A stretch of 64,000 nt of DNA from Acidovorax sp. 1608163. Its GTDB lineage: Bacteria > Pseudomonadota > Gammaproteobacteria > Burkholderiales > Burkholderiaceae_C. Shown one piece after another: positions 1,069 to 57,623 of the stretch. Position numbers and translations under genes: made by a program. Under the pieces are notes generated by a model. It saw only the letters and a program-made list of their open reading frames with translations. It searched no databases and was not told where the DNA came from. The number at the start of each line of letters is the position of its first letter. The first letter of the stretch is position 1. The stretch lies in the NCBI RefSeq assembly GCF_003669015.1, contig NZ_CP033069.1, forward strand, positions 1,119,001-1,183,000, given 5' to 3'.

Positions 1069-3783
1069 TCACCAATCCTCCTTCACCGCCATCACCGCAT
1101 CCCTCCCCGCAGCCGCCCGCCCAGCCAGCCACGCGGTCACCGTCCCTGACACCACCACCGCCGCGCACAGCGCCCACAAGCGCGGCACAGGGATGTTCAT
1201 CTCCATCGTCCAGTGAAAGCTTTGCGGGTTGACGACGTGCACCAGCACCACGGACACGGCCAGGCCCAGCAGCACGCCAGCGATGGCGCCAATGCCCGTC
1301 CATGCCGCGCCTTCGCCTGCCACCACGGCCAGGATCTGGCGGCGGGTGAGGCCCAGGTGGGCGAGCAGGCCGAATTCTTTGCGGCGGGCCAGCACCTGGG
1401 CGCTGAAGCTGGCGGCCACGCCGAAGAGGCCGATGCCGATGGCCACGGCCTGCAGCCAGTAGGTGACGGCGAAGCTGCGGTCGAAGATTTGCAGGGAGCG
1501 TTCGCGGATGGATTGGGCGGAGACAAATTCGATGAGGCTAGGGGATGGGCTGGCCGCGCCGTTGGGGTGGTCGCTGCTTGTGCCGTTTGGCCGCGCTCCA
1601 TCGGCTGCTGCGGACGAGGCTTGGGGCGATGTGTCGGCCCTTTCCCCTGGGGGCGCAACGGGTGGCGAAGCCGATGGCTGGGCCAAGTGGCGAATGTTCG
1701 CCTGCAGCACGGCCAAGTCCACCCCCTCGGCAGGCCACAGGGCCAGGTCGCTGATGCGGGTGTCGCCCGTCAGGCGCTGGTAGGCGGCGCTGTCGAGGGT
1801 GATGGCCCCGGTCTGGCGCACATAGTCGCGCCACACGCCTGCTATAAAAAACGTAGCTGCTTGCGCTTGATTATCAAGCGCTACAGGTACAAAAGCCTTT
1901 GAAAGCTCGGGCCACGCCTGGCCGGTGCGCACGCCATACAGGTCCACCACCGCCTCGCTCACATACACGCCGATGTGCCCGGCGGGCACGGGCAGGGCGG
2001 GGCCGGTGAGGGGCAGCACCTGGGCGGGGTCTGTGCCCAGCGGGCGGCTCAGCACGGTGAGGGCGGGGCGGGCGGCGCTCAGCTGCAGGGGGCTGGTGCG
2101 CAGGGGCGATACCTTGTCCACGCCCGGCAGGCGGGCCACTGCTTCGGCAAAGCCGGGGGGCAGCAGGGCGGCGTCGCCGCCCGCAGCTTGTAGGGCCGAG
2201 CGCACGTACAGCGGCGAGGGCAGCACCGCGTCCAGCCACTGGATGACCGAGCCGCGAAAACTGGCCACCATCACCGTCAGCGCTACGGCCAGGCTCAGGC
2301 TGGCCACCACGCCGCCCACGGCAATGGCGGCGGTGCCACGCATGCGGCGGGCGCGCTCCAGCGCCAGCAGGGTGAGCGGGTGGCGCACGGCCAGCGGCTG
2401 CAGGCGATGCAGCAGCCAGGCCACGCCCCAGGGCAGCAGCGCAATGCCGCCCACCAGCAGCAGGCCAATCGCCACATAGGCCGCCAGTGGAATGCCAAAA
2501 ACGGGCGGAAGCGCCGCCAAACCAGCGCTGGCAGCTATCAAAACCATACCAACCCAACCCCGCCCAGCGCGCCCGCTGGCACTGCCCATGCCCTTCAGGG
2601 TCTGGGCCGGGGGCAGGGCCTGCGCGGCGCGGGCGGGCCACCAGCCGCCAGCCACCGCAGCGGCCACGCCCAGGCTGCCGTAGAGCAGGGCGGCGCTCAA
2701 ACTCCATTGCAGGCGGGGCTGCACCCCGGCAAAGTAGCCACCGCCCAGGTCACCGCCCAGCAACTGCAACGCCGCGCTGGCCAGGGCCGTGCCCAGCGCC
2801 AGCCCGGCCAGGCTGCCCACCACGCCCAGCAGGGCCGATTCGGCCAGCACCAGCGCCAGCCGCTGGCGCGGCGTGGCTCCCAGCACGGCCAGCAGCGCAA
2901 ACTGCGGCCCGCGCTGCGCCACGCTGAGGGCCAGCACTGAGAACACCAAAAACGCCCCGGTGAACAGCGCCACCAGCGCCAGCACCGTCAGGTTGACGCG
3001 GTACGCGCGCGAGAGGTTGCTCACCCGCTGCGCCGCATCGCCCGGCTCGGCCAGCGTGGCCTGGGCGGGCCAGCCGGGCAGGGCTTGCAGCGCAGGCATG
3101 ACGGCGCTGCGGTTGGTGCCGGGCTGCAGTTGCAGGTCGATGCGGGTGAGGTGGCCCACGCGGCCCAGCAGGTCTTGCGCGGCGCCAATGTCCATCACCG
3201 CCAGTGGGGCGCCCGGCGCACTCACGGTGCCTGCCACCTGCACGGTCAGGGTTTGCAGGCCGGTTTGCAGTTGCAGGGTGGGGCGGGGCTGGGTGCCCTC
3301 GGGCGGCACGCCCAGCGCCTGCAGCGCAGCGGGGTTGAGGTAGACAGTGGCGGGGGCAAAGAGGGCATCGCGCGCAGCGCCTTCCCACGGCCGGGGCATG
3401 AGGGCCGGGGCCATGGCGGGCAGCAGCAGGGCATCGGCCCCCAGCAGGCGCAGGGGGATGGGGGCATTGCCTGGGGCCTGTGCCGCAGGGCGGGCCATGG
3501 CTGTGGCTTCCAGCACGGGGTTGGCGCGGGCCACGTCGGGGTGGTTGGCGATCTGGGCAAACAGGTCTTCGCCCAACGTGCCCTGCATGGCGCGCACTTC
3601 CAGATCGGGCTGGCCGTTGACGGCGCGCACGGCCTGCGAAAACTCGTCCAGCGCCGATGCGTTGATGACGTGCACGGCAAACGCCAGCGCCACGCCCAGC
3701 ATGACGGCAGCCACGGCGGCGGCGCTGCGCCAGGGGTGGTGGCGAAGGTCTTGCCACGAGAAGGTGCGAAGCAGTGCGAGCAT
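1069..3783 (-). CDS. ABC exporter permease with two FtsX domains
   Basis: Integral membrane subunit of an FtsX/MacB-type ABC system of the YbbP/LolC class, which moves lipids or envelope proteins or transmits mechanical force rather than importing solutes. After a short cytoplasmic start (MLALLRTFSWQDLRHH) there is one helix, a large periplasmic part, a first FtsX block of three helices (about residues 265-395), further helices, a second periplasmic part, and a final FtsX block of three helices whose cytoplasmic loop carries the typical ARRKEFGLLAHLG segment. I start at 3783 rather than the longer frame to 3831 because the extra 16 residues are proline/arginine-rich and precede a standard N-terminus. 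Its ATPase is most likely the gene at 4651-5391, separated by a divergent Hsp20 gene. Two palindromic repeats lie inside it in frame (about residues 412-430 and 632-648). Confidence 0.85.
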   Translation of the reverse strand: MLALLRTFSWQDLRHHPWRSAAAVAAVMLGVALAFAVHVINASALDEFSQAVRAVNGQPDLEVRAMQGTLGEDLFAQIANHPDVARANPVLEATAMARPAAQAPGNAPIPLRLLGADALLLPAMAPALMPRPWEGAARDALFAPATVYLNPAALQALGVPPEGTQPRPTLQLQTGLQTLTVQVAGTVSAPGAPLAVMDIGAAQDLLGRVGHLTRIDLQLQPGTNRSAVMPALQALPGWPAQATLAEPGDAAQRVSNLSRAYRVNLTVLALVALFTGAFLVFSVLALSVAQRGPQFALLAVLGATPRQRLALVLAESALLGVVGSLAGLALGTALASAALQLLGGDLGGGYFAGVQPRLQWSLSAALLYGSLGVAAAVAGGWWPARAAQALPPAQTLKGMGSASGRAGRGWVGMVLIAASAGLAALPPVFGIPLAAYVAIGLLLVGGIALLPWGVAWLLHRLQPLAVRHPLTLLALERARRMRGTAAIAVGGVVASLSLAVALTVMVASFRGSVIQWLDAVLPSPLYVRSALQAAGGDAALLPPGFAEAVARLPGVDKVSPLRTSPLQLSAARPALTVLSRPLGTDPAQVLPLTGPALPVPAGHIGVYVSEAVVDLYGVRTGQAWPELSKAFVPVALDNQAQAATFFIAGVWRDYVRQTGAITLDSAAYQRLTGDTRISDLALWPAEGVDLAVLQANIRHLAQPSASPPVAPPGERADTSPQASSAAADGARPNGTSSDHPNGAASPSPSLIEFVSAQSIRERSLQIFDRSFAVTYWLQAVAIGIGLFGVAASFSAQVLARRKEFGLLAHLGLTRRQILAVVAGEGAAWTGIGAIAGVLLGLAVSVVLVHVVNPQSFHWTMEMNIPVPRLWALCAAVVVSGTVTAWLAGRAAAGRDAVMAVKEDW
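1841..1895 (+). repeat. Palindromic element copy A, inside the ABC permease gene
   Basis: Core GTAGCTGCTTGCGCTT at about 1853-1868, a short spacer, then AAGCGCTACAGG, with AT-rich flanks. Read on the gene strand it encodes VALDNQAQAATFF in the second periplasmic part of the permease. The AT-rich codons (AAT, GAT, ACG, TTT) contrast with the surrounding gene. Confidence 0.75.
2491..2547 (-). repeat. Palindromic element copy K, inside the ABC permease gene
   Basis: Reverse orientation: an imperfect left arm, then CAGCGCTGGCAGCTATC at about 2523-2539. On the gene strand it encodes a hydrophobic stretch with the IAASAG core seen in the comEC and miaA copies. The left arm is more diverged than in other copies, so it may be an old insertion. 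Confidence 0.6.
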
Positions 3784-3862
3784 GCGGGCATTGTGCCGCC
3801 GGGGTGGTGCTGGGCGGGCGGCGGGGGCCATTTGAGAAGGATCAAAAGCCTTCTCGCTACCT

Positions 3863-3890
3863 CTTGAAATGGTGGAGGGCGCGCCGTAAT
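3863..3890 (+). promoter_or_regulatory. Candidate heat-shock (sigma-32) promoter for hsp20
   Basis: CTTGAAA at about 3863-3869 is followed, after about 14 bases, by CCGTAAT. The first box equals the sigma-32 -35 consensus; the second matches CCCCATT only partly. It lies about 135 bases before the Hsp20 start, in the right direction. Inference from position and one good box. Confidence 0.35.
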
Positions 3891-4026
3891 TTGCGAGAGG
3901 TGAGTGCGTGAAGGCGTGCCGTGATCTTTGGGATGCCTTGCTGCACTCTGTGGTCTGGCACGCATGCGGGGCTCAGCCCATGCGCCAGGAGGTTTGTTTC
4001 ACTGACTTTCTTCAAGGAGCATCACC

Positions 4027-4458: not shown

Positions 4459-4518
4459 GGGCGGGTGGTGTGAGGGCCCTGGCTTCGGCGGACTCAGCCT
4501 GAACGGGTAGGTTGCTGT

Positions 4519-4617
4519 GTAGGTCGGGTTAGCGCAGCGTAACCCGACGCCCATACGGCTGAACGCGGTGTGCCCTGTGGGTGTCGGGTTACGCTCTTTT
4601 GGGCTAACCCGACCTAC
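4519..4617. repeat. REP-like repeat doublet in inverted orientation
   Basis: One hairpin unit, beginning GTAGGTCGGGTTAGC and closing with GTAACCCGAC, lies at about 4519-4550. A second unit in opposite orientation lies at about 4581-4617 and closes with GGCTAACCCGACCTAC. Each unit folds by itself and the two also pair with each other. This is the layout of a REP doublet (BIME). It lies just downstream of hsp20 and downstream of the convergent ATPase gene, where it could stabilise both mRNA ends. Confidence 0.75.
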
Positions 4618-4650
4618 GGGGTCTGGGGGGGTTTACCAGCTTCGGCTGGC

Positions 4651-5387
<737 letters not shown>

Positions 5388-5391
<4 letters not shown>

Positions 5392-6422
5392 GCGGCGGCG
5401 GGGTTGGGGTTGGTGGACTGGGGCTGGTCAAGCCGCTGCAGCACGGCCTGCACCAGGGAGGCCACGGCGGTGGGGTGGTCGCAGGCGATGGCGTGGCGCT
5501 CGGGCATGCTGCGCAGCCAGGTCACCTGGCGCTTGGCCAGCTGGCGCGTGGCAACGATGCCGCGCTCGCGGAAGTGGGCGATGTTCAGCGGCGCGTCGGG
5601 GCCTTTGCGGGCCTGGTAGTCCAGCTCGTCCCACGCTTGGCGGTAGCCCACGCAGCGCATCGATGGCAGGTCGGCATGCAGGTCGCCGCGTGCGCGCAGG
5701 GCGCGCACCTCGTCCATAAAGCCTGCGGCCAGCATGGCGTCAAACCGCTGGGCTATGCGCTCGTGCAGCCAGGCACGGTTGTCGGGTTCTAAAGAAAAAA
5801 GGGCTGTAGCGCTTGCTGCGCTTGCGCTGGCAGCTCCTTTTTTTGTAGTGTGAAAGCTCGACAGCGGCTGGCCCGACACATGCCACACCTCCAGCGCACG
5901 CTGGATGCGCTGGCTGTCGCCCGGCGCCAGGCGCGCGGCGGTGGTGGGGTCTACCTTGGCCAGCTCGGCGTGCATGCCGGGCCAGCCAATGGCCTGGGCC
6001 TGGGCTTCGAGCTGGGCGCGCACCTCGGGGTCGGCGGCGGGCATGTCGTCAATGCCGTCGATCAGCGCCTTGAAGTACAGCATGGTGCCGCCCACCAGCA
6101 GGGGCAGGGCACCGCGTGCGCGGATCTCGGCGATGAGGCGGGTGGCGTCTTGCACAAACTCGGCGGCGCTGTAGGCCTGCAGCGGGTCGCGGATGTCGAT
6201 GAGGTGGTGGGGCACGGCGGCACGCTCTGCCGCCGTGGGCTTGGCGGTGCCAATGTCCATGCCCCGATAGACCAGGGCCGAGTCCACGCTGATGATCTCG
6301 ACCGGCATGCGCCGCCCCAGCACCGCTGCCAGTGCCAGTGCCCCAGCGGTTTTGCCCGAGGCGGTGGGGCCTGCCAGCGCAATGTTGGGCAGGTGTTCAG
6401 GCAGCATGTCGCGGTTCTCCAA
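5388..6422 (-). CDS. miaA: tRNA dimethylallyltransferase
   Basis: Transfers a dimethylallyl group to N6 of adenosine 37 in tRNAs that read UNN codons, the first step of ms2i6A formation. The P-loop GPTASGKT is at residues 18-25, followed by [18 protein letters not shown] and, later, [13 protein letters not shown], all standard for MiaA. The 344 residues are slightly longer than usual because a palindromic element (copy B) adds a low-complexity Ala/Ser segment at about residues 192-211. The start overlaps the end of the upstream MFS gene by 26 bases; an ATG at 6407 is a possible alternative. Its stop overlaps the start of the ABC ATPase. An exporter-miaA-ATPase operon is likely. Confidence 0.95.
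5790..5847 (-). repeat. Palindromic element copy B, inside miaA
   Basis: Reverse orientation on the plus strand, with TGTAGCGCTTGCTG at about 5805-5818 and GCGCTGGCAGCTCC after it. On the miaA strand it reads [14 protein letters not shown] between the conserved SSFHTT and the LEPDNR segment, in frame and without a stop. Confidence 0.8.
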
Positions 6423-16265: not shown

Positions 16266-18311
16266 TCAGCGCCCGCGCAAAAACAGCCCGTCCAGCTCTT
16301 TCATCGACAACTGCCGCCAGGTGGGGCGGCCGTGGTTGCACTGGTCCGATCGGTCGGTGGTTTCCATCTGCCGCAGCAGGGCGTTCATCTCGTCCAGCGT
16401 GAGCTTGCGGTTGGCGCGCACGGCGCCGTGGCAGGCCATGGTGCCCAGGATTTCATTGCGGGCGCGTTGCACCACGGTGGTGGCGTCGTGTGCGGCCAGC
16501 TCGGCCAGCACGCTGCGGGCCAGCTCCACGGCATCACCCTGCGCCAGCGTGGTGGGCACGGCGCGTACGGCCAGGGTCTTGGGCGAGAAGGGCACCACCT
16601 CCAGCCCCAGCGTGGCCAGCACCTCGACAGACTCTTCGGCCGTGGCCACTTCCTGCGGCGTGGCGGCAAAGGTGGCGGGGATCAACAGCGGCTGGCTGGC
16701 AATGCGGGCGCCGCTGTCCACTTGAGATTTCAGGCGTTCGTAGACGATGCGCTCGTGGGCGGCGTGCATGTCCACAATCACCATGCCCTGGGCGTTCTCG
16801 GCCAGGATGTAGACGCCGTGCAGCTGCGCCACGGCGCGGCCCAGCGGCCAGGCAGATGCGTTGTCGCCGCGCTGCTCGGGCCACACCATGGCCTCGCTGG
16901 GGGACGCATCGCCTGAGGCATTGTTCACGGCCCCACCCGCTGAGCTGGGGGGCAGAGCCATTGAGGCTGCGGCGGTGCCATGGGCCGTGGCCTCGCCGGG
17001 CTGCACGGCCGCAGGCTGCGCCGAGGGCGCCCACAGACCGCCCAGCGCAGCATCTGGTGCCGCTGCTGGAGGGGTTTCGCGCGGCGCCCACAGGGCCTGC
17101 AGGTCTTGCACACGGTGGCCGCGTTCTTCAAATTTCATAGCTGCTTGCGCTTGCCAGGCGGGCGCTAGAGGCCTTTTTTGTTCTAAGTCTGCAGTGTGGG
17201 CCGCAGGTGCCGCACCTTCGCCAGCGGCTTGTGCGGCGTTGGCGGCTGCCAATGCCGCAGCGCGGGGCGCGGCCAGGGCGTTTTCCACTGCGTGGCGCAC
17301 GGCCTGGTGCACCTCTCGGCTGTCCCGAAAGCGCACCTCGATCTTGGTGGGGTGCACGTTCACGTCCACGCGGGCGGGGTCGATCTCGACATACAGCGCG
17401 TAGATGGGCTGTTTGTGGCCATGCAGCACGTCCTCGTACGCGGCGCGGGCGGCGTGGGTGAGCACCTTGTCGCGCACAAAGCGGCCGTTCACGTAGCAGT
17501 ACTGGTGGTCGGGCCGCGAGCGGGCGGCGTCGGGCAGGCCTGCGCGGCCAGTGACGGTGACGGGCCCCACGCGGTGCTGCACGGTGACGGACTGCTGCAC
17601 AAAGTCTTCGCCCAGCACGTCTGAGAGGCGGCGGGCCAGCGCGTCTTGCGGGTTACCCTCGCCGGGCACAAAGGTGGCACGCCACTGCTCCACCAGCTTG
17701 CCCTCGTGCCAGATGGCAAAGCCCACATCGGGCCGTGCCAGCGCGTGGCGGCGCACCGATTCAATGCAGTGCGCCAGCTCGGTGGCGTCGGTCTTCAAGA
17801 ACTTGCGGCGGGCGGGGGTGGAGAAGAACAGCTCTTTGACCTCAATGGTCGTGCCCTGGCTTCGGGCGGCTGGGCGCAGCTCGCCGCTGCGGGCGTCCAG
17901 CAAAAAGGCGCTGGCCTGCGTGGGCGGGCGCGAGAGCAGGGCCATCTCCGACACCGAGCTGATGGCCGCCAGCGCCTCGCCCCGAAAACCCATGGTGGCC
18001 ACGGTTTCCAGGTCGTGCAGGTTGGTGATCTTGCTGGTGGCATGGCGGCGCAGCGCCACGGGCAGCTCTTCGGGCGGAATGCCCAGGCCGTCGTCCTCGA
18101 CCGATATCAACCGCACCCCACCGGCCAGCAGCCGCACGGTGATTTGCGTGGCCCCGGCGTCCAGGGCGTTGTCCACCAGCTCGCGCACCACCGAGGCGGG
18201 GCGCTCCACCACTTCACCGGCCGCAATCTGGCTGATGAGTTCGTCGGGCAGGTCACGGATGGGACGGCGCGAGGCCAGGGGGGCGTCGGTGGTGGAGTCG
18301 GTTGGGTTCAC
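16266..18311 (-). CDS. mutL: DNA mismatch repair protein MutL
   Basis: Couples MutS mismatch recognition to strand nicking and excision. The N-terminal GHKL ATPase shows Glu44 and Asn48 in RELVDNALDAG, DDGLGI at 73-78 and GFRGEAL at 108-114; the C-terminal dimerisation domain ends with ACHGAVRAN and CNHGRPTW. Both ends are intact and 681 residues is within the family range. The linker (about 340-480) is long, Ala/Pro-rich and variable, and contains palindromic copy C at about residues 376-393. No DQHA(X)2E(X)4E endonuclease motif was seen. That position reads VDMHAAHERIVYE, a close variant, so nicking activity should be checked rather than assumed. Confidence 0.96.
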   Translation of the reverse strand: MNPTDSTTDAPLASRRPIRDLPDELISQIAAGEVVERPASVVRELVDNALDAGATQITVRLLAGGVRLISVEDDGLGIPPEELPVALRRHATSKITNLHDLETVATMGFRGEALAAISSVSEMALLSRPPTQASAFLLDARSGELRPAARSQGTTIEVKELFFSTPARRKFLKTDATELAHCIESVRRHALARPDVGFAIWHEGKLVEQWRATFVPGEGNPQDALARRLSDVLGEDFVQQSVTVQHRVGPVTVTGRAGLPDAARSRPDHQYCYVNGRFVRDKVLTHAARAAYEDVLHGHKQPIYALYVEIDPARVDVNVHPTKIEVRFRDSREVHQAVRHAVENALAAPRAAALAAANAAQAAGEGAAPAAHTADLEQKRPLAPAWQAQAAMKFEERGHRVQDLQALWAPRETPPAAAPDAALGGLWAPSAQPAAVQPGEATAHGTAAASMALPPSSAGGAVNNASGDASPSEAMVWPEQRGDNASAWPLGRAVAQLHGVYILAENAQGMVIVDMHAAHERIVYERLKSQVDSGARIASQPLLIPATFAATPQEVATAEESVEVLATLGLEVVPFSPKTLAVRAVPTTLAQGDAVELARSVLAELAAHDATTVVQRARNEILGTMACHGAVRANRKLTLDEMNALLRQMETTDRSDQCNHGRPTWRQLSMKELDGLFLRGR
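17131..17184 (+). repeat. Palindromic element copy C, inside the mutL linker
   Basis: ATAGCTGCTTGCGCTT at about 17137-17152 and GGCGCTAGAGGCC at about 17160-17172, ending in a T tract. On the mutL strand it encodes PLAPAWQAQAAMKF in the disordered linker, the same frame as copies A and F. Confidence 0.75.
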
Positions 18312-18412
18312 CGGACGGATTTTAGGCGTCGCTCTGGTGGGGATTTGGTTACAGGGCGATAGCGATAATGCGCCCTGCTTTTTATTGAGCAGATTCTTAG
18401 AACTTGAAATAT

Positions 18413-18470
18413 CCGTTCGGGTTGAGCTTGTCGAAACCTTGCGCAGTCGCTTCGACTGCTCTCAGTGAAC
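18413..18470. repeat. Dispersed repeat of the TTCGGGTTGAGCTTGTCGAA type
   Basis: CCGTTCGGGTTGAGCTTG followed by TCGAAACC at about 18413-18438, then GCTTCGACTGCTCTCAGTG in roughly inverse orientation at 18449-18467. This hairpin is known to me as a frequent intergenic repeat in Burkholderiales. It lies between mutL and the divergent DedA gene, upstream of both starts. Confidence 0.6.
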
Positions 18471-18536
18471 AGTTCATTGGGATGCATGCTGAACCCAAAG
18501 CCCGCTCAACCCGCTCAAAGCCCTCAAGGCCAGCCC

Positions 18537-19187
18537 ATGGAAATAGTGACCTTTCTGATCGACTTCATCCTGCACGTGGACAAGCACCTGGAGGCCTTTG
18601 TGCAGACCTACGGCATGTGGGTGTATGCGCTGCTGTTCCTGATCGTGTTTGTGGAGACCGGCGTGGTGGTGATGCCGTTTTTGCCGGGCGATTCGCTGCT
18701 GTTCATCGTGGGCGCACTGTGCGGCGCAGGGATGATGAGCTTTCCGCTGGCGTGTGCCGTGCTGGTGGCCGCCGCCATTTTGGGCGACCAGTGCAACTAC
18801 TCCATCGGGCGTTACTTTGGCCCCAAGGTGTTCCAGTGGGAAGACTCGCGCTGGTTCAACCGCAAGGCGTTTGACCAGGCCCACGCGTTTTATGAACGCT
18901 ATGGCGGCATCACCATCGTGATCGCGCGCTTCATGCCCTTTATCCGCACGTTTGCGCCTTTTGTGGCGGGCGTGGCCGAGATGGGCCGTGCCAAGTTCAC
19001 GGCCTTCAATGTGGGCGGCGCGCTGCTGTGGGTGCTGGGCATTGCCACGGCGGGCTACTTCTTCGGCAACTTTGCCTGGGTGAAGGAGAACCTGGACAAG
19101 ATCATCTGGGCGATGATTTTTGTGCCTGGACTGATTGCCATCTTTGGTGCCTGGCGTGCGGGCCGCACATCCAAGGCAACGGTCTGA
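18537..19187 (+). CDS. DedA family membrane protein
   Basis: Inner-membrane protein of the DedA/VTT superfamily, members of which flip undecaprenyl phosphate or phospholipids and maintain the proton motive force. Visible family marks: ETGVVVMPFLPGDSLLF (re-entrant segment), GDQCNYSIGRYFG, and RFMPFIRTFAPFVAGVAEM, with the arginines needed in E. coli DedA proteins. The ATG at 18537 gives 216 residues with N-terminus MEIVTFLIDFILHVDKHLEAF, the normal form; the extra 24 residues of the longer frame are unlikely. Single-gene unit ending at a palindromic element shaped like a terminator. Confidence 0.92.
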   Translation: MEIVTFLIDFILHVDKHLEAFVQTYGMWVYALLFLIVFVETGVVVMPFLPGDSLLFIVGALCGAGMMSFPLACAVLVAAAILGDQCNYSIGRYFGPKVFQWEDSRWFNRKAFDQAHAFYERYGGITIVIARFMPFIRTFAPFVAGVAEMGRAKFTAFNVGGALLWVLGIATAGYFFGNFAWVKENLDKIIWAMIFVPGLIAIFGAWRAGRTSKATV

Positions 19188-19194
19188 TTGATTT

Positions 19195-19258
19195 TGCTAT
19201 CAATTGAATAGCTGCTAGCGCTTTCTAATCAAGAGCTAGCAGCTATTTTTTAGATTTT
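19195..19258 (+). repeat. Palindromic element copy D, also terminator-shaped
   Basis: ATAGCTGCTAGCGCTTT at about 19208-19224 pairs with AAGAGCTAGCAGCTAT at about 19231-19246, followed by a run of six T. It lies between two convergent genes (DedA, plus; OsmB-like lipoprotein, minus), where it can end both transcripts. It is the most symmetric copy of the family here. Confidence 0.85.
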
Positions 19259-19264
19259 TTGGGA

Positions 19265-22788: not shown

Positions 22789-22807
22789 TGTCAAATTTTT
22801 TTAAGTG

Positions 22808-22857
22808 TTTTATGCCTCTAGCGCTTATCTAATAAGCGCTAGCAGCTATCAAATAAG
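22808..22857 (-). repeat. Palindromic element copy E, intergenic
   Basis: CTCTAGCGCTTATCT at 22816-22830 and AATAAGCGCTAGCAGCTATC after it. The 37 bases 22816-22852 are identical to copy G at 35376-35412. Lies between the convergent queG and AEC-transporter genes and can fold as a transcription stop. Confidence 0.85.
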
Positions 22858-22904
22858 TAGCGTTTTGCGCTGGGGCTGCCGATGGGCCCCGCGCCGCTGC
22901 GGGT

Positions 22905-29949: not shown

Positions 29950-30753
29950 TCAGCCCTGCTGTAGCCACTGCAACTCTGCCTCGGTAAAGCCTGCCTGGCG
30001 GCGGGCTGCGTTGTTGAACGGGGGCTTGAGCCGGGGGGCTTCGTACTTTTTGACCAGTTCGGCGTAGTGCGTCTCGGGGTTGATCCCCTGGCGCTCGCAC
30101 AGCCAGCGGTACCAGTGGTTGCCTATGGCGACATGCCCGACCTCGTCGCGCAAGATGATGTTCAAAATCTCAACCGCTGCCAGGGCGTCGGGCGTGCCCA
30201 CTTGCCGCAGTTTGTTCTGGATCTGTGGGGTGGCGTCCAGGCCCCGCGCTTCCATGGTGCGGGGCACCAGCGCCATGCGCGCCACGATGTCGTGCTGGGT
30301 TTTCTCGCACATGGTCCACAGGCCCTGGTGCGCGGGAAAGTCGCCATAGTCATGCCCCTGGGCCCGCAGGTGGTCGCGCAGCAGGCCAAAGTGCATGGCT
30401 TCTTCTGCCGCCACTTGCACCCAGTTCCGGTAATAGTCAGCGGGCATGGCGTCAAAGCGCCATACGGCGTCCAGCGCCAGGTTGATGGCGTTGAACTCAA
30501 TGTGCGCAATGGCGTGGATCAGGATGGCGCGGCCTTGCGCCGTAGCGGGTGAGCGTCGGGCCACTTCGGTGTGGCGCATCAGCGCGGGGCGGGCCGGGTG
30601 GCCTGGCAAGCAGGCCGGGTCTACGGTGTCGGTGGGGAATGTGTTTGCTATCGAATATGTAGCTAGTTGCGCTTGTAGATCAAGCGCTGCGGCCGCTTTT
30701 TGGTCTGGGTCTGTCAGGCATAAAACCTGCAGTGCACGTTGGCGAAGCTCCAT
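29950..30753 (-). CDS. DUF455 family ferritin-like protein
   Basis: Di-iron-type four-helix protein of unknown reaction. Candidate metal ligands are in HAIAHIEFNAINLALDAVW, QVAAEEAMHFGLLRDHL and IILRDEVGHVAIGNHWYRWL, the three helices that carry the E/H pattern in this family. The ATG at 30753 gives 267 residues with N-terminus MELRQRALQVL; the ATG at 30777 adds eight unconserved residues. Palindromic copy F lies in frame at about residues 17-36, in a segment before the conserved core. Divergent from the gamma carbonic anhydrase gene with 111 bases between starts. Confidence 0.85.
   Translation of the reverse strand: MELRQRALQVLCLTDPDQKAAAALDLQAQLATYSIANTFPTDTVDPACLPGHPARPALMRHTEVARRSPATAQGRAILIHAIAHIEFNAINLALDAVWRFDAMPADYYRNWVQVAAEEAMHFGLLRDHLRAQGHDYGDFPAHQGLWTMCEKTQHDIVARMALVPRTMEARGLDATPQIQNKLRQVGTPDALAAVEILNIILRDEVGHVAIGNHWYRWLCERQGINPETHYAELVKKYEAPRLKPPFNNAARRQAGFTEAELQWLQQG
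30646..30703 (+). repeat. Palindromic element copy F, inside the DUF455 gene
   Basis: TGTAGCTAGTTGCGCTTG at about 30659-30676 and CAAGCGCTGCGGCC at 30681-30694. On the gene strand it encodes AAALDLQAQLATYS, closely matching the peptides of copies A and C, in the same frame. Confidence 0.75.
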
Positions 30754-30864
30754 CCTTACAATTCTAGGCCCTGCCACCTACCGCACTGCTCACGCTTTGT
30801 AAACAATTGGCAGCCATTTGTTTCTTGATGGGTTTCTTTCTTTACCTCAACCGGAGTGTGTGGC

Positions 30865-34052: not shown

Positions 34053-35360
<1,308 letters not shown>

Positions 35361-35365
35361 TTAAA

Positions 35366-35414
35366 TCAAATCGGGCTCTAGCGCTTATCTAATAAGCGCT
35401 AGCAGCTATCAATT
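35366..35414 (-). repeat. Palindromic element copy G, intergenic
   Basis: CTCTAGCGCTTATCT at 35376-35390 and AATAAGCGCTAGCAGCTATC after it; 37 bases identical to copy E. It sits between the DUF1330 gene and eno, all on the minus strand, 26-75 bases before the eno start, so it lies in the eno leader. Confidence 0.85.
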
Positions 35415-35439
35415 AGTGAGCGATCAGGTGCGAAGGCGG

Positions 35440-38354: not shown

Positions 38355-39569
38355 ATGAATGAGCTTGCTGGCAAACACATTGTTCTGGGTCTGAGTGGGG
38401 GCGTGGCTTGCTACAAGGCGGCCGATTTTTGCCGCCAGCTCATCAAGGCCGGGGCCACCGTGCAGGTGGTGATGACCGAAGCGGCCGGGCAGTTCATCAC
38501 GCCTGTCACCATGCAAGCCCTGTCAGGCCGCCCCGTGTACGGATCGCAGTGGGACGCGCGCGAGCCCAACAACATGCCGCACATCAACCTCAGCCGCGAG
38601 GCCGATGCCATCGTGGTTGCGCCTTGCAGTGCCGATTTCATCGCCCGCCTGGTGCAGGGCCGCGCGGACGAACTGCTGAGCCTGATGTGCCTGGCCCGCC
38701 CCATCGACCGCGTGCCCCTGTTGCTGGCGCCTGCCATGAACCGCGAAATGTGGGCACACCCTGCCACCCAGCGCAACTTGGCCCAGGTGGCAGCAGATGG
38801 CGCCACGGTGCTGGGGGTGGGCAATGGCGACCAGGCCTGCGGTGAGACCGGCGATGGCCGCATGCTGGAGCCCAGCGAGTTGCTGGAAGAATTGATCGCT
38901 TTTTTTGCACCCAAGGTGCTGGCCGGGCAGAGGGTGCTGATCACCGCCGGTCCCACGTTTGAGGCCATCGACCCGGTGCGGGGCATTACCAACCTCTCCA
39001 GCGGAAAAATGGGCTTTGCCATTGCCCGTGCGGCGCGTGAGGCTGGGGCCGACGTGACCCTGGTGGCTGGGCCTGTGCACTTGCCCACCCCCCGCGGGGT
39101 GCGGCGCGTGGATGTGAGATCTGCACAAAATATGCTGCAAGCGGTTGAGGAACAAGCGCAAGTTGCTACTGTATTCATAGCAACTGCGGCGGTGGCCGAT
39201 TGGCGCGTGGCGGCGCAGTCGACCGAGAAAATAAAGAAAGACGGCTCGGGCCAGCCCCCCGCGCTGCATTTTGTGGAGAACCCCGACATCCTCGCCCGCG
39301 TGGCCCAGTCGCCCCAGGCCCAGTCGGGGGCGCTGTACTGCGTGGGCTTTGCCGCAGAAAGCCACGACCTTCTGGCGCACGCCACGGCCAAGCGTGCCCG
39401 CAAGGGTGTGCCGCTGCTGGTGGGCAACATTGGCCCGGCCACGTTTGGGCAGGATGACAATGCCTTGTTGTTGGTGGATGCGCAGGGGCACAGCGAACTG
39501 CCGCGCGCCTCCAAGCGCGCCTTGGCCCAGCAACTGGTGGGCGAAATCGCCCGGCGTCTGCAGCGCTGA
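38355..39569 (+). CDS. coaBC: Bifunctional CoaBC (phosphopantothenoylcysteine synthetase/decarboxylase)
   Basis: Two steps of coenzyme A synthesis. The N-terminal flavin decarboxylase shows [43 protein letters not shown] and the active-site [12 protein letters not shown]; the C-terminal synthetase shows [31 protein letters not shown] and the [13 protein letters not shown] region. 404 residues, normal. A diverged palindromic element (copy H) occupies about residues 257-275, where codon use becomes suddenly AT-rich while the protein keeps its length. Divergent from pyrG. Confidence 0.96.
39127..39184 (-). repeat. Diverged palindromic element copy H, inside coaBC (tentative)
   Basis: Reverse orientation: CTGCAAGCGGTTGAGG at about 39135-39150 and AACAAGCGCAAGTTGCTAC after it. 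It encodes [15 protein letters not shown], which matches the peptide of copy A (ALDNQAQAATFFIA) in the same frame. The arms no longer pair well, so it is tentative. Confidence 0.5.
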
Positions 39570-46764: not shown

Positions 46765-47319
46765 CTAACTAGACGCGGGCTGCGGCCCATGGCGCGCGGG
46801 GGCCTCTGGGTGAGGTGTTTCCCGTACCGCCGCGATTCGCTGCACGAACCGGGCCGGGTTTTCGAGGTAGCCGTCCTCGTAGGCCACCGTGCGCAGCGCC
46901 CCAAAAGCCTGCAGCAACTCGCCCGGGCGCAGCAGAAAGTCGGCCCGGCTGGGGCGCCCCACGGTTTCGTGCCCTTGCGCAAAGGTTTCGTAAATCAGTA
47001 CACCACCGGGCGCCAGGCTGGCGAGCAAGGTGGGCAGCAGCGGGCGCCACAGGTAATTGGTCACCACCACGGCGCCAAACTGCTGGCCTTGCAGGGGCCA
47101 GGGGCCGTTTTCGAGGTCGGCGCAAATCAACTCACCCAACCCGGCGCAGGCGGCGATGGCCTCGGGCGAACGGTCTACGCCCGTGACGGGATGGCCCTGG
47201 GCTTGCAGCCAGCGCATGTGGCGGCCCGCGCCACAGGCCACGTCCAGAACATGGGCGTGCGGTGGGACCAGGTGCGTCCATTGCTGAACCCAGGCAGAGG
47301 GGGCTTCCGTGCCGTGCAT
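46765..47319 (-). CDS. Class I SAM-dependent methyltransferase
   Basis: 184 residues, with the SAM-binding motif LDVACGAGRHMRWLQAQGHPVTGVDRS, ICADLENGPWPLQGQQFGAVVVTNYLWRPLLP and LLIYETFAQGHE; target unknown (it resembles the TehB/UbiE-like group). I start at ATG 47319 (MHGTEAPSAWVQQW); the apparent longer frame to 47388 is simply a translation of palindromic copy I, which lies immediately upstream. Its leader therefore contains the element. Close upstream of dapA on the same strand. Confidence 0.82.
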   Translation of the reverse strand: MHGTEAPSAWVQQWTHLVPPHAHVLDVACGAGRHMRWLQAQGHPVTGVDRSPEAIAACAGLGELICADLENGPWPLQGQQFGAVVVTNYLWRPLLPTLLASLAPGGVLIYETFAQGHETVGRPSRADFLLRPGELLQAFGALRTVAYEDGYLENPARFVQRIAAVRETPHPEAPARHGPQPASS

Positions 47320-47325
47320 GTGTTG

Positions 47326-47386
47326 TTTGCTATTAAATTGGTAGCTGCTTGCGCTTATATAGCAAGCGCTAGAGGCCGAAAATACC
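47326..47386 (+). repeat. Palindromic element copy I, upstream of the methyltransferase gene
   Basis: GTAGCTGCTTGCGCTT at about 47341-47356 and AGCAAGCGCTAGAGGCC at about 47361-47377, with AT-rich flanks. It lies between the small membrane protein and the methyltransferase, within 10 bases of the latter's start codon. Confidence 0.85.
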
Positions 47387-47391
47387 ACAAA

Positions 47392-47565
47392 TCAAAAGCA
47401 CGACCAGACTTTGTCTGCCACCATGACCATGAAGTCTGGCACGGTGTACATCGCAAACACCCCAAGGCAAACGGCCACGGCCGCTAGCCAGCCCAGCGCC
47501 CGCAGCCAGCTGCGCCGCGCGCGGGGGGCGTGCAGTGATGGGGTGGTGGGCTGGGAGGGGTTCAC
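47392..47565 (-). CDS. Small single-helix membrane protein, 57 aa
   Basis: A GTG at 47565, preceded by AAAGAGG, opens a frame of 57 residues: a basic proline-rich start (MNPSQPTTPSLHAPRARRSW), one hydrophobic helix (LRALGWLAAVAVCLGVFAMY) and the end TVPDFMVMVADKVWSCF. The last part is, to my memory, shared by small proteins of unknown function in Comamonadaceae. It would sit in the inner membrane. It lies between the MFS carrier and the methyltransferase, all on the minus strand, 32 bases after the carrier's stop, so they are likely co-transcribed. Confidence 0.7.
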   Translation of the reverse strand: MNPSQPTTPSLHAPRARRSWLRALGWLAAVAVCLGVFAMYTVPDFMVMVADKVWSCF

Positions 47566-50986: not shown

Positions 50987-51832
50987 ATGACACCACTTCG
51001 CAAAATAGGCCTCTTGCGCTGGTCTGCATTGGGTTTGCTGCTCTGCTTTTTGCAGCAGCATGCCCATGCCGACCTGTGGGCGCATGTGGACGAGCGCGGG
51101 GTGACGCACTTTGCCGCCGAGCAGCTCGATGCGCGGTACCAGCTCTTCTTTCGGGGCACCGAGTTCGATTCGACCCGTGACATGCCTGCAGGCACACCCG
51201 CCACCCCGCACGGCATGCCCAGTGCAGGTGCGCGCCTGCTGGCGTTTTTTGACATCGCTCCCGGCTACAAAAGCATCAAGCACCACCTGCGCGCCGCCGC
51301 AGAGCAGCAGGCGGTGGACTACGAACTGCTGCAAGCGCTGATTGCCACAGAGTCGGGTTTTGATGCGCAGGCCGTCTCGCCCAAGGGTGCGGTGGGCCTG
51401 ATGCAGCTCATGCCCGCCACGGCCAGCCGCTTTGGCGTGCGGGCCGATGCCAAGCGCTCGTTGGAGCAAAAGCTGACCGACCCCGCCGTGAACGTGCCCA
51501 CGGGCACGCGCTACCTGCGTTACCTGCTCGACCTGTTCCCCGGCCGCATGGATCTGGCCCTGGCGGCCTACAACGCGGGCGAGGGGGCGGTGCAAAAAGC
51601 CGGTAACCAGATACCTGCCTTCAAAGAAACCCAGAACTACGTGCGCACGGTGCTGGCGCTGTACACCCAGCTCAAGCCGCCCGCCCCCGTGCTGGCCCAG
51701 CGCGCAGCGCCGGGGCGGGTGCGCATGCAATTGCAGGGCGGCGCCCAAGGCCGTGGCAACCTGCCGCCCGACACTTTGGTGGCGCACACCCGCGCCAGCA
51801 ACGAACCTCTACCGACGATTCCGAACGAATGA
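50987..51832 (+). CDS. Lytic transglycosylase (SLT) with N-terminal DUF4124
   Basis: Periplasmic enzyme that cleaves peptidoglycan between MurNAc and GlcNAc to give 1,6-anhydro ends. A signal (LLRWSALGLLLCFLQQHAHA) is followed by a short DUF4124-like segment (DLWAHVDERGVTHFAAEQ) and the SLT domain with catalytic Glu in LIATESGFDAQAVSPKGAVGLMQLMPATA and the AYNAGEGAV motif. 281 residues. Ten bases before the parC start, between the two topoisomerase IV genes, so the three should be one operon. Confidence 0.92.
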   Translation: MTPLRKIGLLRWSALGLLLCFLQQHAHADLWAHVDERGVTHFAAEQLDARYQLFFRGTEFDSTRDMPAGTPATPHGMPSAGARLLAFFDIAPGYKSIKHHLRAAAEQQAVDYELLQALIATESGFDAQAVSPKGAVGLMQLMPATASRFGVRADAKRSLEQKLTDPAVNVPTGTRYLRYLLDLFPGRMDLALAAYNAGEGAVQKAGNQIPAFKETQNYVRTVLALYTQLKPPAPVLAQRAAPGRVRMQLQGGAQGRGNLPPDTLVAHTRASNEPLPTIPNE

Positions 51833-51842
51833 GCGCTAACGA

Positions 51843-54200: not shown

Positions 54201-54219
54201 CACCCGCTGGCCTGAAAGT

Positions 54220-54251
54220 AAAAAAGCCAACCGGCGACGGTTGGCTTTTTT
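54220..54251. terminator. Bidirectional terminator after parC
   Basis: AAAAAAGCCAACC and GGTTGGCTTTTTT with a 6-base loop. T runs follow the stem on both strands, so it ends the parC transcript and the convergent ridA-like transcript. Confidence 0.93.
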
Positions 54252-54272
54252 GTTGTGCGCAGTAGCTCGGTA

Positions 54273-54731
54273 TCAAGCCAGCTCGGCAATCAGTTCAATC
54301 TCCACGCAAGCGCCCATGGGCACTTGGGCCACGCCAAAGGCGCTGCGGGCGTGCACGCCCTTGTCGCCAAACACCTGGCCCAGCAGCTCGCTGGCACCGT
54401 TGGTCACCAGGTGCTGCTCGGTGAAGTCGCCGGTCGAGTTGACCAGGCTCATCACCTTGACGATGCGCTGAATGCGGTTGAGGTCACCGCCCGTGGCCGC
54501 GTGCAGTGTGCCCATCAGGTCAATGGCCACGGCGCGGGCGGCCAGCTTGCCTTCTTCGGTGGTGATGTTCTTGCCAAACTGCGCGGCCCAGGGCTTGCCG
54601 TCCTTGCGGGCGATGTGGCCGGAGAGGAACACCAGGTTGCCCGTTTGCACATAAGGCACGTAGGCGGCGGCGGGGGCCGACACGGGGGGCAGGGTGATGT
54701 TGAGTTCGCTCAGTTTGTCGTAAACGCTCAT
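54273..54731 (-). CDS. RidA family protein (YjgF/UK114)
   Basis: Trimeric RidA-fold protein, 152 residues from the ATG at 54731 (MSVYDKLSELNITLPPV); the longer frame upstream is non-coding. Canonical RidA removes reactive 2-aminoacrylate and relies on Arg105 within VARLP. The equivalent segment here is GVAQVPMGACVEIELIAEL, with Gln at that place, so it belongs to a RidA subgroup that lacks the deaminase arginine and whose function is not settled. A terminator-like hairpin lies in its leader. Confidence 0.88.
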   Translation of the reverse strand: MSVYDKLSELNITLPPVSAPAAAYVPYVQTGNLVFLSGHIARKDGKPWAAQFGKNITTEEGKLAARAVAIDLMGTLHAATGGDLNRIQRIVKVMSLVNSTGDFTEQHLVTNGASELLGQVFGDKGVHARSAFGVAQVPMGACVEIELIAELA

Positions 54732-54785
54732 GGTTGGCTTCCTTGGTTGATGTGCGCCATCGGCGCGGGAAAACGGTGCGAGAAA

Positions 54786-54819
54786 TAAAGGCCCGGTGCT
54801 GGCAATGCCTGCACCGGGC
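54786..54819 (-). promoter_or_regulatory. Hairpin in the ridA-like leader, possible attenuator
   Basis: On the minus strand GCCCGGTGC and GCACCGGGC form a perfect 9-base stem followed by CTTTATTTC. It lies about 55-90 bases before the start codon and after no other minus-strand gene, so it may be an attenuator or a block to antisense transcription from the divergent comEC promoter. Confidence 0.35.
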
Positions 54820-54896
54820 TGCGGCGCCAAGTGTTACACAGCCGGGGCTGTGCACTGCGCGCGCAGGGCTGCTGCAAGGCGCATTAGCATCAGCCC

Positions 54897-57623
54897 ATGT
54901 TTGCCATAAGTCCTTCTAATGTCCCGCCGCCGCTGCCCCGTGAGGTGGGGGAGGGCGATGGCGGCGCCACGGGGCAAGGGGCGCACGGCGGGCATGGAGA
55001 GCATGAGGGCCACGATGATTCGCGCCAGCCTTGGCGCTTGCCTGCGGTGCTCATGGGTGTGGTGGTGGGGTCGGCCCTGCAACTGTGGCAACCCGTACTG
55101 TGGCCTGTGGCGGTGTATGGCTGGGCTTTGCTGGGGGCCTTGGGGGCGGGCGCCGCCGTGGTGTGGCGCAAATCCTTGCGCAGGCGATGGCTTGACAGGG
55201 CTTTGCGCCCAGGGCCTGCAGGGGCTTTGGGGGCTGTGGGGGCGGCGCCCAGGTGGCAGGCGGGGTGGTGGGTGGCTGCCCTGGCTTGGGGGTTGGTGGC
55301 TGCCTTTGCCCTGTGTGGCTTGCGGGCCAGCTTGTTTGCCGCGCAGGGCCTGCCTGCGGCCCTGGAGGGGCAGGACCTGCGCATCACCGCAGTGGTGGCG
55401 GCCATGCCCCAGCGCAGCGAGGCCGGTGTGCGCCTGCGGCTGGAGGTGGAGTCGGCCGAATGGGCGACGGTGCCAGGGACGCCGGGCAAGGCCCGTCCAC
55501 CCGATCGGCAGAGCGCCGCGCCGCAGGTGCCCGCATTGATCGATGTGTCTTGGTACGGCCGCGCGCTGCGTGACGCACAGGGCCTGGCCGATTTGCAGCG
55601 CCAGCCGCCCGAGTTGCGCGCGGGCGAGCGCTGGCGCATGACGGTGCGCCTGAAGGCCCCCCACGGCCTGCGCAACCCGCACGGTTTTGACTACGAGCTG
55701 TGGCTGTGGGAGCAGGGCGTGCAGGCCACAGGCTACGTCCGTGCTGGGCCTAAGGACCCGCCTCCAGAGCGGTTGGCCAGCACCTGGCGCCACCCGGTGG
55801 AGCAGTGGCGCCAGTCGGTGCGCGATGCCATCGTGCAGCGCCTGGCAGGCAGCCCCGTGGGGGACGAGGATGCCCCGAGTGCGCTGGGTGCGCCTGCCGC
55901 AGCGCGTGTGTCTGGCGTGGTGGCCGCGTTGGTCACTGGCGACCAGCGGGCCATTGACCGTGCCGATTGGGACATCTTCCGCGCCACGGGCGTGGCCCAT
56001 TTGATGAGCATCTCGGGCCTGCACATCACCTTGTTTGCCTGGCTGGCGGCGGCCGTGGTGGGGGCGCTGTGGCGGCGTTCGCGGCGCCTGTGCCTGGCTG
56101 TGCCTGCCCCTACGGCGGCCCTGGTGTGTGGCGTGGTGCTGGCGGGCGGCTACGCCTTGTTCAGCGGCTGGGGTGTGCCTGCCCAGCGCACGGTGACCAT
56201 GCTGGCCGTGGTGGCGGCCCTGCAGCTTAGCGGCCGCCGCTGGCCCTGGCCGCAGGTGTGGCTGCTGGCCTGCGCTGCCGTGGTGCTGACGGACCCCTGG
56301 GCGCTGTGGCAGGCGGGGTTTTGGCTGAGCTTTGTGGCGGTGGGGGTGTTGTTTGCTACTGATTTTGTAGCTGCTAGCGCTTATCAGAAAAGCGCTAGAG
56401 GCCATTTTTATGCATTATTGCGAGAGCAGTGGGTGGTGACGCTGGCGCTCACGCCGCTGAGCCTGCTGCTGTTTGGCCAGGTGTCGGTGGTGGGGTTTGC
56501 GGCCAATTTGCTGGCCATACCGTGGGTCACGCTGGTGGTCACGCCCCTGGCGCTGGCCGGGGTGGTGTGGGCGCCGCTGTGGTCGCTGGCGGCGTGGGCC
56601 TTGCAGCCCCTGGCGGCCGGGCTGCAGTGGCTGGCCAGTTGGCCCTGGGCCGTGGTGTTCTTGCCTGCTGCGCCGTTATGGGCCGGCGCTTTGGCTTTGC
56701 TGGGTGGCTGTTTGTTGGCCATGCGCCTGCCCTGGCCGTTGCGTCTGTGGGCGGTGCCCTTGCTGGTGCCGCTGCTGTGCTGGCAGGCGCCCCGGCCTGC
56801 GGTGGGCCAGTTTGAGCTGCTGGCGCCCGACATTGGCCAGGGCAACGCGGTGCTGGTGCGCACGGCCACGCACACCTTGCTGTACGACGCCGGCCCGCGC
56901 TTCAGCCGCGAGAGCGATGCGGGCCACCGCGTGCTGGTGCCACTGCTGCGGGCACTGGGCGAGCGGGTGGATGTGCTCATGCTCAGTCACCGCGACGCCG
57001 ACCACACCGGAGGCGCGGCGGCCGTGCTGGCCCAGCAGCCCGCAGCGGCTTTGACGGGCTCGATCGAAGCCGAGCATGCGCTGCAGGCCCTGCGCCCGGC
57101 CACCCCTTGTGTGGCCGGGCAGCGCTGGGAGTGGGATGGCGTGGCGTTGGAGGTACTGCACCCCACGGGCGCTGAGCTGGACCGCAGCGACCACCTTGAT
57201 CGCCCTGTTCGCCCCAACACCATGAGCTGTGTGCTGCGGGTGGCCAGCGCCGCAGGCATGCCTGGCACGCAGGCCGTGGCCTTGCTGGTGGGCGACATCG
57301 AAGCCCCGCAAGAGCAGGCCCTGCTGGCCCGCGCGGCGCCCCTGAAGGCCGATGTGCTGCTGGTGCCGCACCACGGCAGCAAAACCTCGTCCAGCGGCGC
57401 GTTCCTGGATGCCGTCCAGCCTCGCACTGCTTTGGTGCAGTCTGGCTACCGCAACCGCTTTGGCCACCCCGCGCCCGAAGTGCTGCAGCGCTATGCCCAG
57501 CGCAATGTGCCGGTGGTGGAGTCTGCCCGCTGCGGCGCGGCGAGCTGGTCGTCTGCGCAGCCCCAGGCCGTGGCCTGTGAGCGCGACACCGGGCGCCGGT
57601 ATTGGCAGCACGCGGTGCCCTGA
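54897..57623 (+). CDS. comEC: Competence protein ComEC/Rec2
   Basis: Inner-membrane channel and nuclease for DNA uptake. 908 residues. It shows an N-terminal helix pair and DUF4131 OB-fold (about 55-260), the Competence membrane block (FRATGVAHLMSISGLHITLFAWLAAAVVGALW, GWGVPAQRTVTMLAVVAALQL) and a C-terminal metallo-beta-lactamase domain (LLAPDIGQGNAVLVRTATHTLLYDAGPR, LMLSHRDADHTGGAAA, LVPHHGSKTSSSGAF). Palindromic copy J is inserted in frame at about residues 486-505, between membrane helices. Together with pilU, it supports natural transformation. Confidence 0.93.
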   Translation: MFAISPSNVPPPLPREVGEGDGGATGQGAHGGHGEHEGHDDSRQPWRLPAVLMGVVVGSALQLWQPVLWPVAVYGWALLGALGAGAAVVWRKSLRRRWLDRALRPGPAGALGAVGAAPRWQAGWWVAALAWGLVAAFALCGLRASLFAAQGLPAALEGQDLRITAVVAAMPQRSEAGVRLRLEVESAEWATVPGTPGKARPPDRQSAAPQVPALIDVSWYGRALRDAQGLADLQRQPPELRAGERWRMTVRLKAPHGLRNPHGFDYELWLWEQGVQATGYVRAGPKDPPPERLASTWRHPVEQWRQSVRDAIVQRLAGSPVGDEDAPSALGAPAAARVSGVVAALVTGDQRAIDRADWDIFRATGVAHLMSISGLHITLFAWLAAAVVGALWRRSRRLCLAVPAPTAALVCGVVLAGGYALFSGWGVPAQRTVTMLAVVAALQLSGRRWPWPQVWLLACAAVVLTDPWALWQAGFWLSFVAVGVLFATDFVAASAYQKSARGHFYALLREQWVVTLALTPLSLLLFGQVSVVGFAANLLAIPWVTLVVTPLALAGVVWAPLWSLAAWALQPLAAGLQWLASWPWAVVFLPAAPLWAGALALLGGCLLAMRLPWPLRLWAVPLLVPLLCWQAPRPAVGQFELLAPDIGQGNAVLVRTATHTLLYDAGPRFSRESDAGHRVLVPLLRALGERVDVLMLSHRDADHTGGAAAVLAQQPAAALTGSIEAEHALQALRPATPCVAGQRWEWDGVALEVLHPTGAELDRSDHLDRPVRPNTMSCVLRVASAAGMPGTQAVALLVGDIEAPQEQALLARAAPLKADVLLVPHHGSKTSSSGAFLDAVQPRTALVQSGYRNRFGHPAPEVLQRYAQRNVPVVESARCGAASWSSAQPQAVACERDTGRRYWQHAVP
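56352..56412 (+). repeat. Palindromic element copy J, inside comEC
   Basis: GTAGCTGCTAGCGCTT at about 56367-56382, AAGCGCTAGAGGCC at about 56390-56403 and an AT-rich tail. It encodes FVAASAYQKSARGHF in a loop between membrane helices. The frame is kept open, and the peptide matches that of copies B and K. Confidence 0.85.

Follow-up and report, generated by a model that had tools for sequence, protein, structure and literature searches.

The stretch of Acidovorax sp. 1608163 DNA analyzed here, called the window in the following, comprises 64,000 nucleotides (contig NZ_CP033069.1, positions 1,119,001 to 1,183,000). It contains copies of a palindromic element of 69 bp which are located both inside genes and between them (Table 1). 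With up to three mismatches allowed, GTAGCTGCTWGCGCTT matched the window 12 times compared to 1.39 matches expected in shuffled sequences. Thus, the matches are enriched beyond expectation. A 69-column weight matrix was constructed from 155 copies, mostly of other genomes with a few from the window, which were chosen by zero or one mismatch in the core and by the left arm TAGCTGC. This matrix detected 10 copies in the window with scores between 24.7 and 89.2 bits and, in the reversed window serving as control, no match at 8 bits or above. Consequently, the motif family is real.

A preliminary description of the window had listed eleven copies, one of them tentatively. Ten were recovered by the matrix, whereas the tentative one, probably the second copy in the permease gene (2485–2553), scored only -27 bits. 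It is the second-best window position outside the matrix matches and may be a decayed copy. The best position of this kind (50991–51059, -14 bits) is perhaps another one. The 37 bases described as common to the two intergenic copies at 22796 and 35356 are indeed exactly identical, and Pfam upheld the earlier gene names permease, miaA, mutL, DUF455, coaBC and comEC (FtsX-type permease, MiaA, MutL, DUF455, CoaBC, ComEC). The product of the open reading frame (ORF) next to the copy at 35356 is presumably enolase-like, judged from its first residues. At 47326 the copy extends over the first codons of the methyltransferase ORF, the true start of which may lie after the copy.

Table 1: Location of the element copies in the window. 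Coordinates and strands of the genes are given in parentheses.
Feature	Position	Strand	Score and observations
Copy inside FtsX-type permease gene (1069–3831, -)	1838–1906	+	50.9 bits; Pfam FtsX
Possible decayed copy in the same permease gene (tentative)	2485–2553	-	-27 bits; dyad with one mismatch at 2534–2550
Copy inside miaA (5388–6422, -)	5784–5852	-	29.5 bits
Copy in the MutL linker (16266–18311, -)	17122–17190	+	61.2 bits; Pfam MutL_C and others
Intergenic copy between convergent genes	19193–19261	+	71.7 bits; RNA fold z = -4.27
Intergenic copy	22796–22864	-	86.0 bits; 37 bases identical to the copy at 35356
Copy inside DUF455 gene (29950–30777, -)	30644–30712	+	24.7 bits
Intergenic copy, 16 bp upstream of the ATG of an ORF (34053–35339, -)	35356–35424	-	89.2 bits
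Copy inside coaBC (38355–39569, +)	39116–39184	-	38.7 bits
Copy at the 5' end of methyltransferase ORF (46765–47388, -)	47326–47394	+	81.6 bits; Pfam methyltransferases
Copy inside comEC (54897–57623, +)	56352–56420	+	85.1 bits

The element is abundant on the whole chromosome. A sample of 20 stretches of 20 kb each (400 kb) contained 51 copies scoring at least 14 bits, and its reversed control contained none. By extrapolation this amounts to approximately 640 copies per genome. The resulting density of one copy per 7.8 kb corrects the earlier estimate of about one per 6 kb. The exact dyad of the element (see below) was counted 366 times in the genome, and the exact inner pattern was found at 114 places along the whole chromosome. 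The copies are under-dispersed, with zero to four per 20-kb stretch (mean 2.55, variance 0.89, n = 20, P = 0.004). The sole stretch free of copies (G000:C1:2290001-2310000) is also that of lowest GC content (0.540) and is perhaps a recently acquired island. With the origin placed at base 1 by assumption and symmetric copies left out, 55 of 88 exact copies, drawn from the 100 listed of the 114 places, shared the orientation prevailing in their half of the chromosome, which is a weak lean (P = 0.025).

The genomic context was determined for 81 copies in 664 kb of the genome using a rough ORF caller that covered 0.758 of the sequence. Sixty copies were intergenic, 16 lay inside ORFs and five across ORF ends; the window is richer in genic copies than this sample. 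The intergenic copies were located between tandem (35), convergent (17) or divergent genes (6), with two at stretch edges. Among the genic copies, 11 run against and five along the direction of the gene.

Architecture of the unit and base pairing

The unit was defined by an alignment of 258 copies from 146 sequences in which a stretch of approximately 69 bp is conserved. Its left part is formed by GCTAY-N7-RTAGC, a dyad of 17 bp in which the spacer is AT-rich. At a distance of 23 bp, measured from centre to centre, follows the inner palindrome GCTAGCGCTT-N7-AAGCGCTAG. The right end consists of GGCC or of a mirror of the left arm, followed by AT tracts. The outline proposed in the preliminary description, AT-rich flanks around a variable centre, is retained in this unit, but the left flank contains a second dyad and the full length is 69 bp.

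The spacing within the unit is fixed. For dyad spacers of 4 to 10 bases the counts on both strands of the 664 kb were 0, 2, 2, 100, 0, 0 and 0, which corresponds to 50 dyad sites with a spacer of 7 bases and two with any other. Elements scoring at least 0 harbor 47 of these 50 dyads. The centre of the inner palindrome measures 7 bases at all 100 listed of the 114 places when 4 to 12 bases are allowed. Its symmetry includes standing mismatches (81 copies of the own genome), and at its foot an RTAG sequence is found in which A is more common than G.

Base pairing was compared to that of shuffled sequences. A weak excess was observed for all 81 copies (P = 0.023) and for the 60 intergenic ones (P = 0.006). 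No excess was present in the 16 genic copies (P = 0.89), nor did the left dyad (P = 0.86) and the outer arm (P = 0.65) show one. That the genic copies keep their letters rather than their pairing suggests recognition of the DNA by a protein. Orientation relative to genes is mixed and pairing is not maintained in genic copies; for these reasons a general RNA function was put aside. Rfam yielded no match in the window at its gathering threshold.

The element at orthologous sites of relatives

In 264 kb, alignment to the nearest relative, G033, was possible for 28 of 30 copies. The RTAGC half of the dyad showed no substitution at 140 positions and the GCTAY half six at 140, compared to 258 at 3169 positions of the flanks. 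Substitutions amounted to 57/588 in the inner part, 18/196 in the left spacer, 60/520 in the outer AT parts and 32/196 in the loop. Hence the dyad evolves more slowly than the flanks, and the outer and inner parts overall do not. The same was found for RTAGC when only intergenic copies were considered (0/95; flank 205/2090). Compared to G035, to which 17 of the 30 copies could be aligned, 4/85 RTAGC and 290/1717 flank positions were substituted. Among sites picked in this outgroup, 16 of 27 of which mapped in both genomes, only one of 159 dyad positions differed. In the own lineage 11 of 26 changes were directed toward the matrix, compared to a neutral fraction of 0.19 (P = 0.005). Judged from these alignments, constraint acts on the dyad in both lineages; the remainder is actively kept in the own lineage at most.

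Copies are retained at most of the sites compared. Of 34 copies in G033, 28 match an own copy of at least 14 bits and one a remnant of 3 bits; two found no match in the compared block. Several sites that appeared empty in comparison with G033 turned out to hold retained copies upon closer alignment. The own copies at 1028043 and 1039819 lack a homologous flank in G033, and among the own copies that do align to it no clean filled/empty pair was detected.

The copy in coaBC reveals how the element can form within a gene. The protein region encoded by it aligns without gaps to 6tgv, 5int and 1u7u, the last of which is the E. coli protein. In all ten congeners compared the site has the same length and ATAAVAD is kept. 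Two of them carry the element including the dyad (G033 with 24.9 bits, G035 with 46.0 bits), whereas the other eight encode much the same residues by ordinary codons with scores of -52 to -89 bits and no dyad. Since these eight have ordinary codons at equal length, the element arose here by substitution; the change is one by substitution whether the three carriers gained the element or the others lost it. Formation in place was demonstrated at the coaBC copy only. This case represents a 69-bp "repeat" that came into being in a conserved gene without insertion, and it warns against taking every abundant palindrome for a mobile element.

The miaA site measures 69 bp in ten of ten congeners with matrix scores from -29.9 to 54.4 bits, and the DUF455 site 69–70 bp in ten of ten. 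MiaA proteins of other families possess an unrelated loop of similar length, and the protein encoded here is four residues longer than one solved chain and seven shorter than another. For comEC, a segment of the same length was present in 30 loci (the own and 29 congeners), in some as a perfect element and in others decayed. Among 28 other genera that could be aligned, several contained a relative of the element of the same length, some had unrelated GC-rich codons of the same length and others longer or shorter loops. The preliminary description had regarded the same segments in orthologues of unrelated genera as a point against the family. This was partly found at comEC, where the relatives come from several genera of the same family; they probably represent old sites rather than an absence of the family.

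The orthologue comparisons revealed no net 69-bp insertion in coaBC, comEC or miaA. A palindromic family that extends through genes and spacers of the genome, as described initially, is thereby retained, but its amplification by copying and insertion is not borne out for these genic copies. Rickettsia palindromic elements (RPE; named in PMC3733652) are in-frame insertions. They resemble the element as palindromes inside reading frames. In contrast to RPE, no in-frame insertion was seen here: CoaBC aligns free of gaps, the length of MiaA lies between those of solved chains and ComEC loops are equally long in several genera without the element.

Distribution, lineage forms and earlier reports

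Of 36 genomes of the genus, the own among them, 30 contained the exact inner pattern. It was detected in 13 of 200 genomes of the family and in none of 24 genomes of other families. The dyad has a wider range. It occurs in at least 40 copies in 59 of the 200 family genomes, with a maximum of 708, in 20–39 copies in three and in 19 or fewer in 138. Within the genus, 41 of 47 genomes contain 62–366 dyads and six (G002, G005, G030, G031, G063 and G327) contain 13–44. The genera of carriers among the matches listed include Acidovorax, Simplicispira, Giesbergeria, Extensimonas, Comamonas, Rhodoferax and Polaromonas.

On the common dyad the inner blocks differ by lineage. Genome G143 has the inner forms CTCGCGCTTG..CAAGCGCTGGAGGCC and 26 matches of at least 14 bits per 100 kb. 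Ten matrix matches were found in 100 kb of G132, and a single one in G175 in addition to the form GTGACCGTC..GGGCTACAGCCC. No matrix match was found in 100 kb of G002, the genome of which contains 35 dyads. In G143 three near-identical copies at steps of 165 bp form a tandem array that includes the element (G143:C1:1000001-1020000, approximately 18213–18612). The exact inner pattern was also present in 17 stretches of virus-labelled contigs in IMG/VR.

Fragments of the element were printed in 2017 (PMC5217627). That report gives, as potential novel motifs without function, GCTTAT(N)5AAGCG with 114 copies (107 intergenic) for Acidovorax ebreus TPSY and ATAGCT(N)22CAAAAG with 125 copies (101 intergenic) for Polaromonas naphthalenivorans CJ2. 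The former matches the inner palindrome of the element. The latter starts with the ATAGCT of the element and possibly represents another dialect. In the section listing them both motifs are pairs only, with no full unit, dyad core, analysis of orthologues or families, or idea of uptake. Another repeat of Bordetella and Comamonadaceae with some genic copies is BRE, which is described as approximately 90 bp long with a GC content of 69% in Bordetella, in tandem arrangement and with at most 29 copies (PMC3110155). It is set apart from the element by this description (length, GC content, tandem arrangement, copy number) rather than by sequence. Among the papers listed from the open-licence literature none was found to have published the full unit, its dyad core, the family range, the in-place origin or a role in uptake, and these, the last as a proposal, appear to be new here.

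Candidate explanations

Some standing force is required to explain a site that forms by substitution, is constrained and differs by lineage. A known force of this kind is uptake bias combined with recombination, as for the uptake signal sequences (USS) of the Pasteurellaceae, which evolve in place by substitution and have AT tracts beside their core. We assign a probability of about 0.4 to the proposal that the family consists of sequence-specific double-stranded DNA sites which are a candidate signal of the DNA-uptake type. A type IV pilus or competence receptor would prefer DNA bearing the site, and better-matching fragments would be taken up and recombined more often. By such a bias of the uptake machinery hundreds of sites would arise and be repaired in place by point substitution, intergenic copies in the same way as that in coaBC. 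They would accumulate where protein and regulatory constraints allow, with the inner block as a lineage-specific dialect. The hundreds of evenly spread copies, the strict spacing of the dyad, the constraint on copies in place, the origin by substitution in coaBC, the differing inner blocks on one dyad and the lack of a pairing excess in genic copies speak for this proposal. So does a query with one copy, which found no match in 50,697 phage records and one in 72,556 plasmid records.

The uptake sequences (DUS) of the Neisseriaceae have dialects and sit in permissive places of the core genome and in terminators (PMC3630211). With DUS and USS the element shares its hundreds of copies, lineage dialects on a common core, permissive core-gene places, putative terminators and, at coaBC only, variation in place by substitution. 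Dyad-paired uptake sequences are described in Simonsiella and Kingella, and the stem-loop at 19193 resembles the inverted uptake-sequence pairs found in terminators (PMC3630211). In contrast, DUS and USS are 9–11 bp long (PMC4212676), mostly lack dyad symmetry and have an experimentally shown function, whereas the element is a 69-bp composite known by its sequence.

Competence has been reported for A. temperans and A. facilis, the former being transformed solely by DNA of its own species, and uptake by V. eiseniae looks selective and needs type IV pili (PMC4212676). The same report names uptake sequences only for other families, and its main text contains neither the word "motif" nor the word "repeat". 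A tentative extension of the uptake proposal, with the odds somewhat against it, is a Comamonadaceae signal outside the two families named there, in which the fast-changing inner palindrome would be a species dialect. Such a dialect would explain the species-restricted transformation in Acidovorax, and the element would be a candidate for the signal behind selective competence in Acidovorax and Verminephrobacter. A large environmental family would gain a defined and testable code of gene-exchange preference. If the site is read by another factor, the family would share a binding system that has hundreds of target sites in each genome.

Several observations weigh against the uptake proposal. 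Species-restricted transformation can also be explained by homology or restriction. Established uptake signals are shorter, denser and present in thousands per genome (PMC3630211), and the 17-bp dyad inside a 69-bp unit is not a short, asymmetric signal like the usual DUS or USS. ComEC was found in 59 of 60 family genomes irrespective of how many dyads they contain; the presence of this competence gene therefore does not follow that of the site. Changes in G033 were directed toward the matrix at the neutral level (6 of 27), so that the excess is confined to the own lineage. The scarcity of copies at low GC content is not significant (3 of 51 copies in 3 of 20 stretches, P = 0.076). The query of phage and plasmid records with a single copy, at an E-value threshold of 1e-3, would miss diverged copies. 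Three of the 34 G033 copies were not found here, at sites which the alignment does not cross. The site at 35356 measures only 14 bp in G034 and 9 bp in G010. In G021 a copy of 39 bits (block position 64802) lies in a spacer of 121 bp; in all five genomes compared with it, the own included, this spacer measures 31–41 bp and is shorter by approximately 80–90 bp. If any copy was gained by insertion, this one is the most likely candidate. Such intergenic indels may reflect either insertional gains or losses, and because of them the explanation by mobile repeats considered below stays alive.

The element might serve instead as a transcription terminator or RNA element that recurs at gene ends. The convergent position of 17 of the 60 intergenic copies and the pairing excess in all and in intergenic copies fit this explanation. 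At 19193 a stem-loop with compensatory changes and A/T tracts was recognized by eye in 10 relatives, and this copy looks like a putative bidirectional terminator. Folding gave z values of -1.98 or lower for five of eight window copies, and between -1.76 and -0.88 for the other three. A scan for terminators marked a stem of this type inside the genic copy at 30644, but it did not mark any of the three intergenic copies in the stretch it covered, that at 19193 included. The 16 of 81 copies inside ORFs, which run in both directions and show no pairing excess, also argue against a terminator, and we consider this explanation for the family quite improbable. A chromosomal DNA-binding protein, either of nucleoid or genome maintenance or acting by methylation and repair, with sites kept by host selection or repair bias, would account equally well for constraint, spacing, formation in place and lineage forms, and exact inner copies occur along the whole chromosome. 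Hundreds of individually selected sites would impose a heavy burden, however, no such factor was identified and none was searched for, and macrodomain-specific sites are not spread over all regions of a chromosome as the element is. A precedent is HIP1 of cyanobacteria, likewise an iterated palindrome with alternates by lineage and an unsettled role, but of 8 bp, tied to methyltransferases and with methylation-linked repair as a proposed force (PMC4390886), whereas the element combines a 17-bp gapped dyad with an inner block. On balance a binding protein of this kind seems rather unlikely.

The remaining alternative is a family of hairpins of the type of repetitive extragenic palindromes (REP) and their paired form REPIN, with RTAG as foot, spread by the nuclease RAYT (Y1_Tnp) and in part modified later in genes. 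REP and REPIN are palindromes with a GTAG-type foot, which the RTAG of the element resembles, and likewise have hundreds of copies, mainly intergenic and some genic (PMC3116915, PMC3733652). The intergenic share of the element, mostly between tandem or convergent genes, its RTAG foot and the indels at some intergenic sites are consistent with such an origin. Y1_Tnp was found, mostly as a single copy, in 37 of 40 congeners, and it is more common in dyad-rich genomes (54 of 59) than in other genomes of the family (93 of 141; Fisher P = 1e-4, phylogeny uncorrected). On the other hand, five of the 59 dyad-rich genomes had no Y1_Tnp match. Three of them are at least 96% complete, namely G148 (100%, 420 dyads), G267 (99%, 309 dyads) and G196 (96%, 117 dyads); the other two are 70–74% complete. 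The own genome contains two Y1_Tnp loci of RAYT-like type. The better one, L003 (G000:C1:815730-816014), has no copy in the surrounding 3.3 kb, and at L004 one copy lies approximately 1.4 kb from the gene. Therefore no mobile gene is closely linked, in agreement with the preliminary description. Unlike REP and REPIN, the element formed without insertion in the coding sequence of coaBC, carries a constrained RTAGC block in single copies and has a fixed spacer of 7 bases. It also does not maintain base pairing in genes. A RAYT-driven family is thus unlikely, and less likely than a signal for DNA uptake.

A separate observation concerns Y1_Tnp in G143. This genome yielded twenty matches, some of them pieces and several with equal scores, as would be expected of a recently active IS200-type element.

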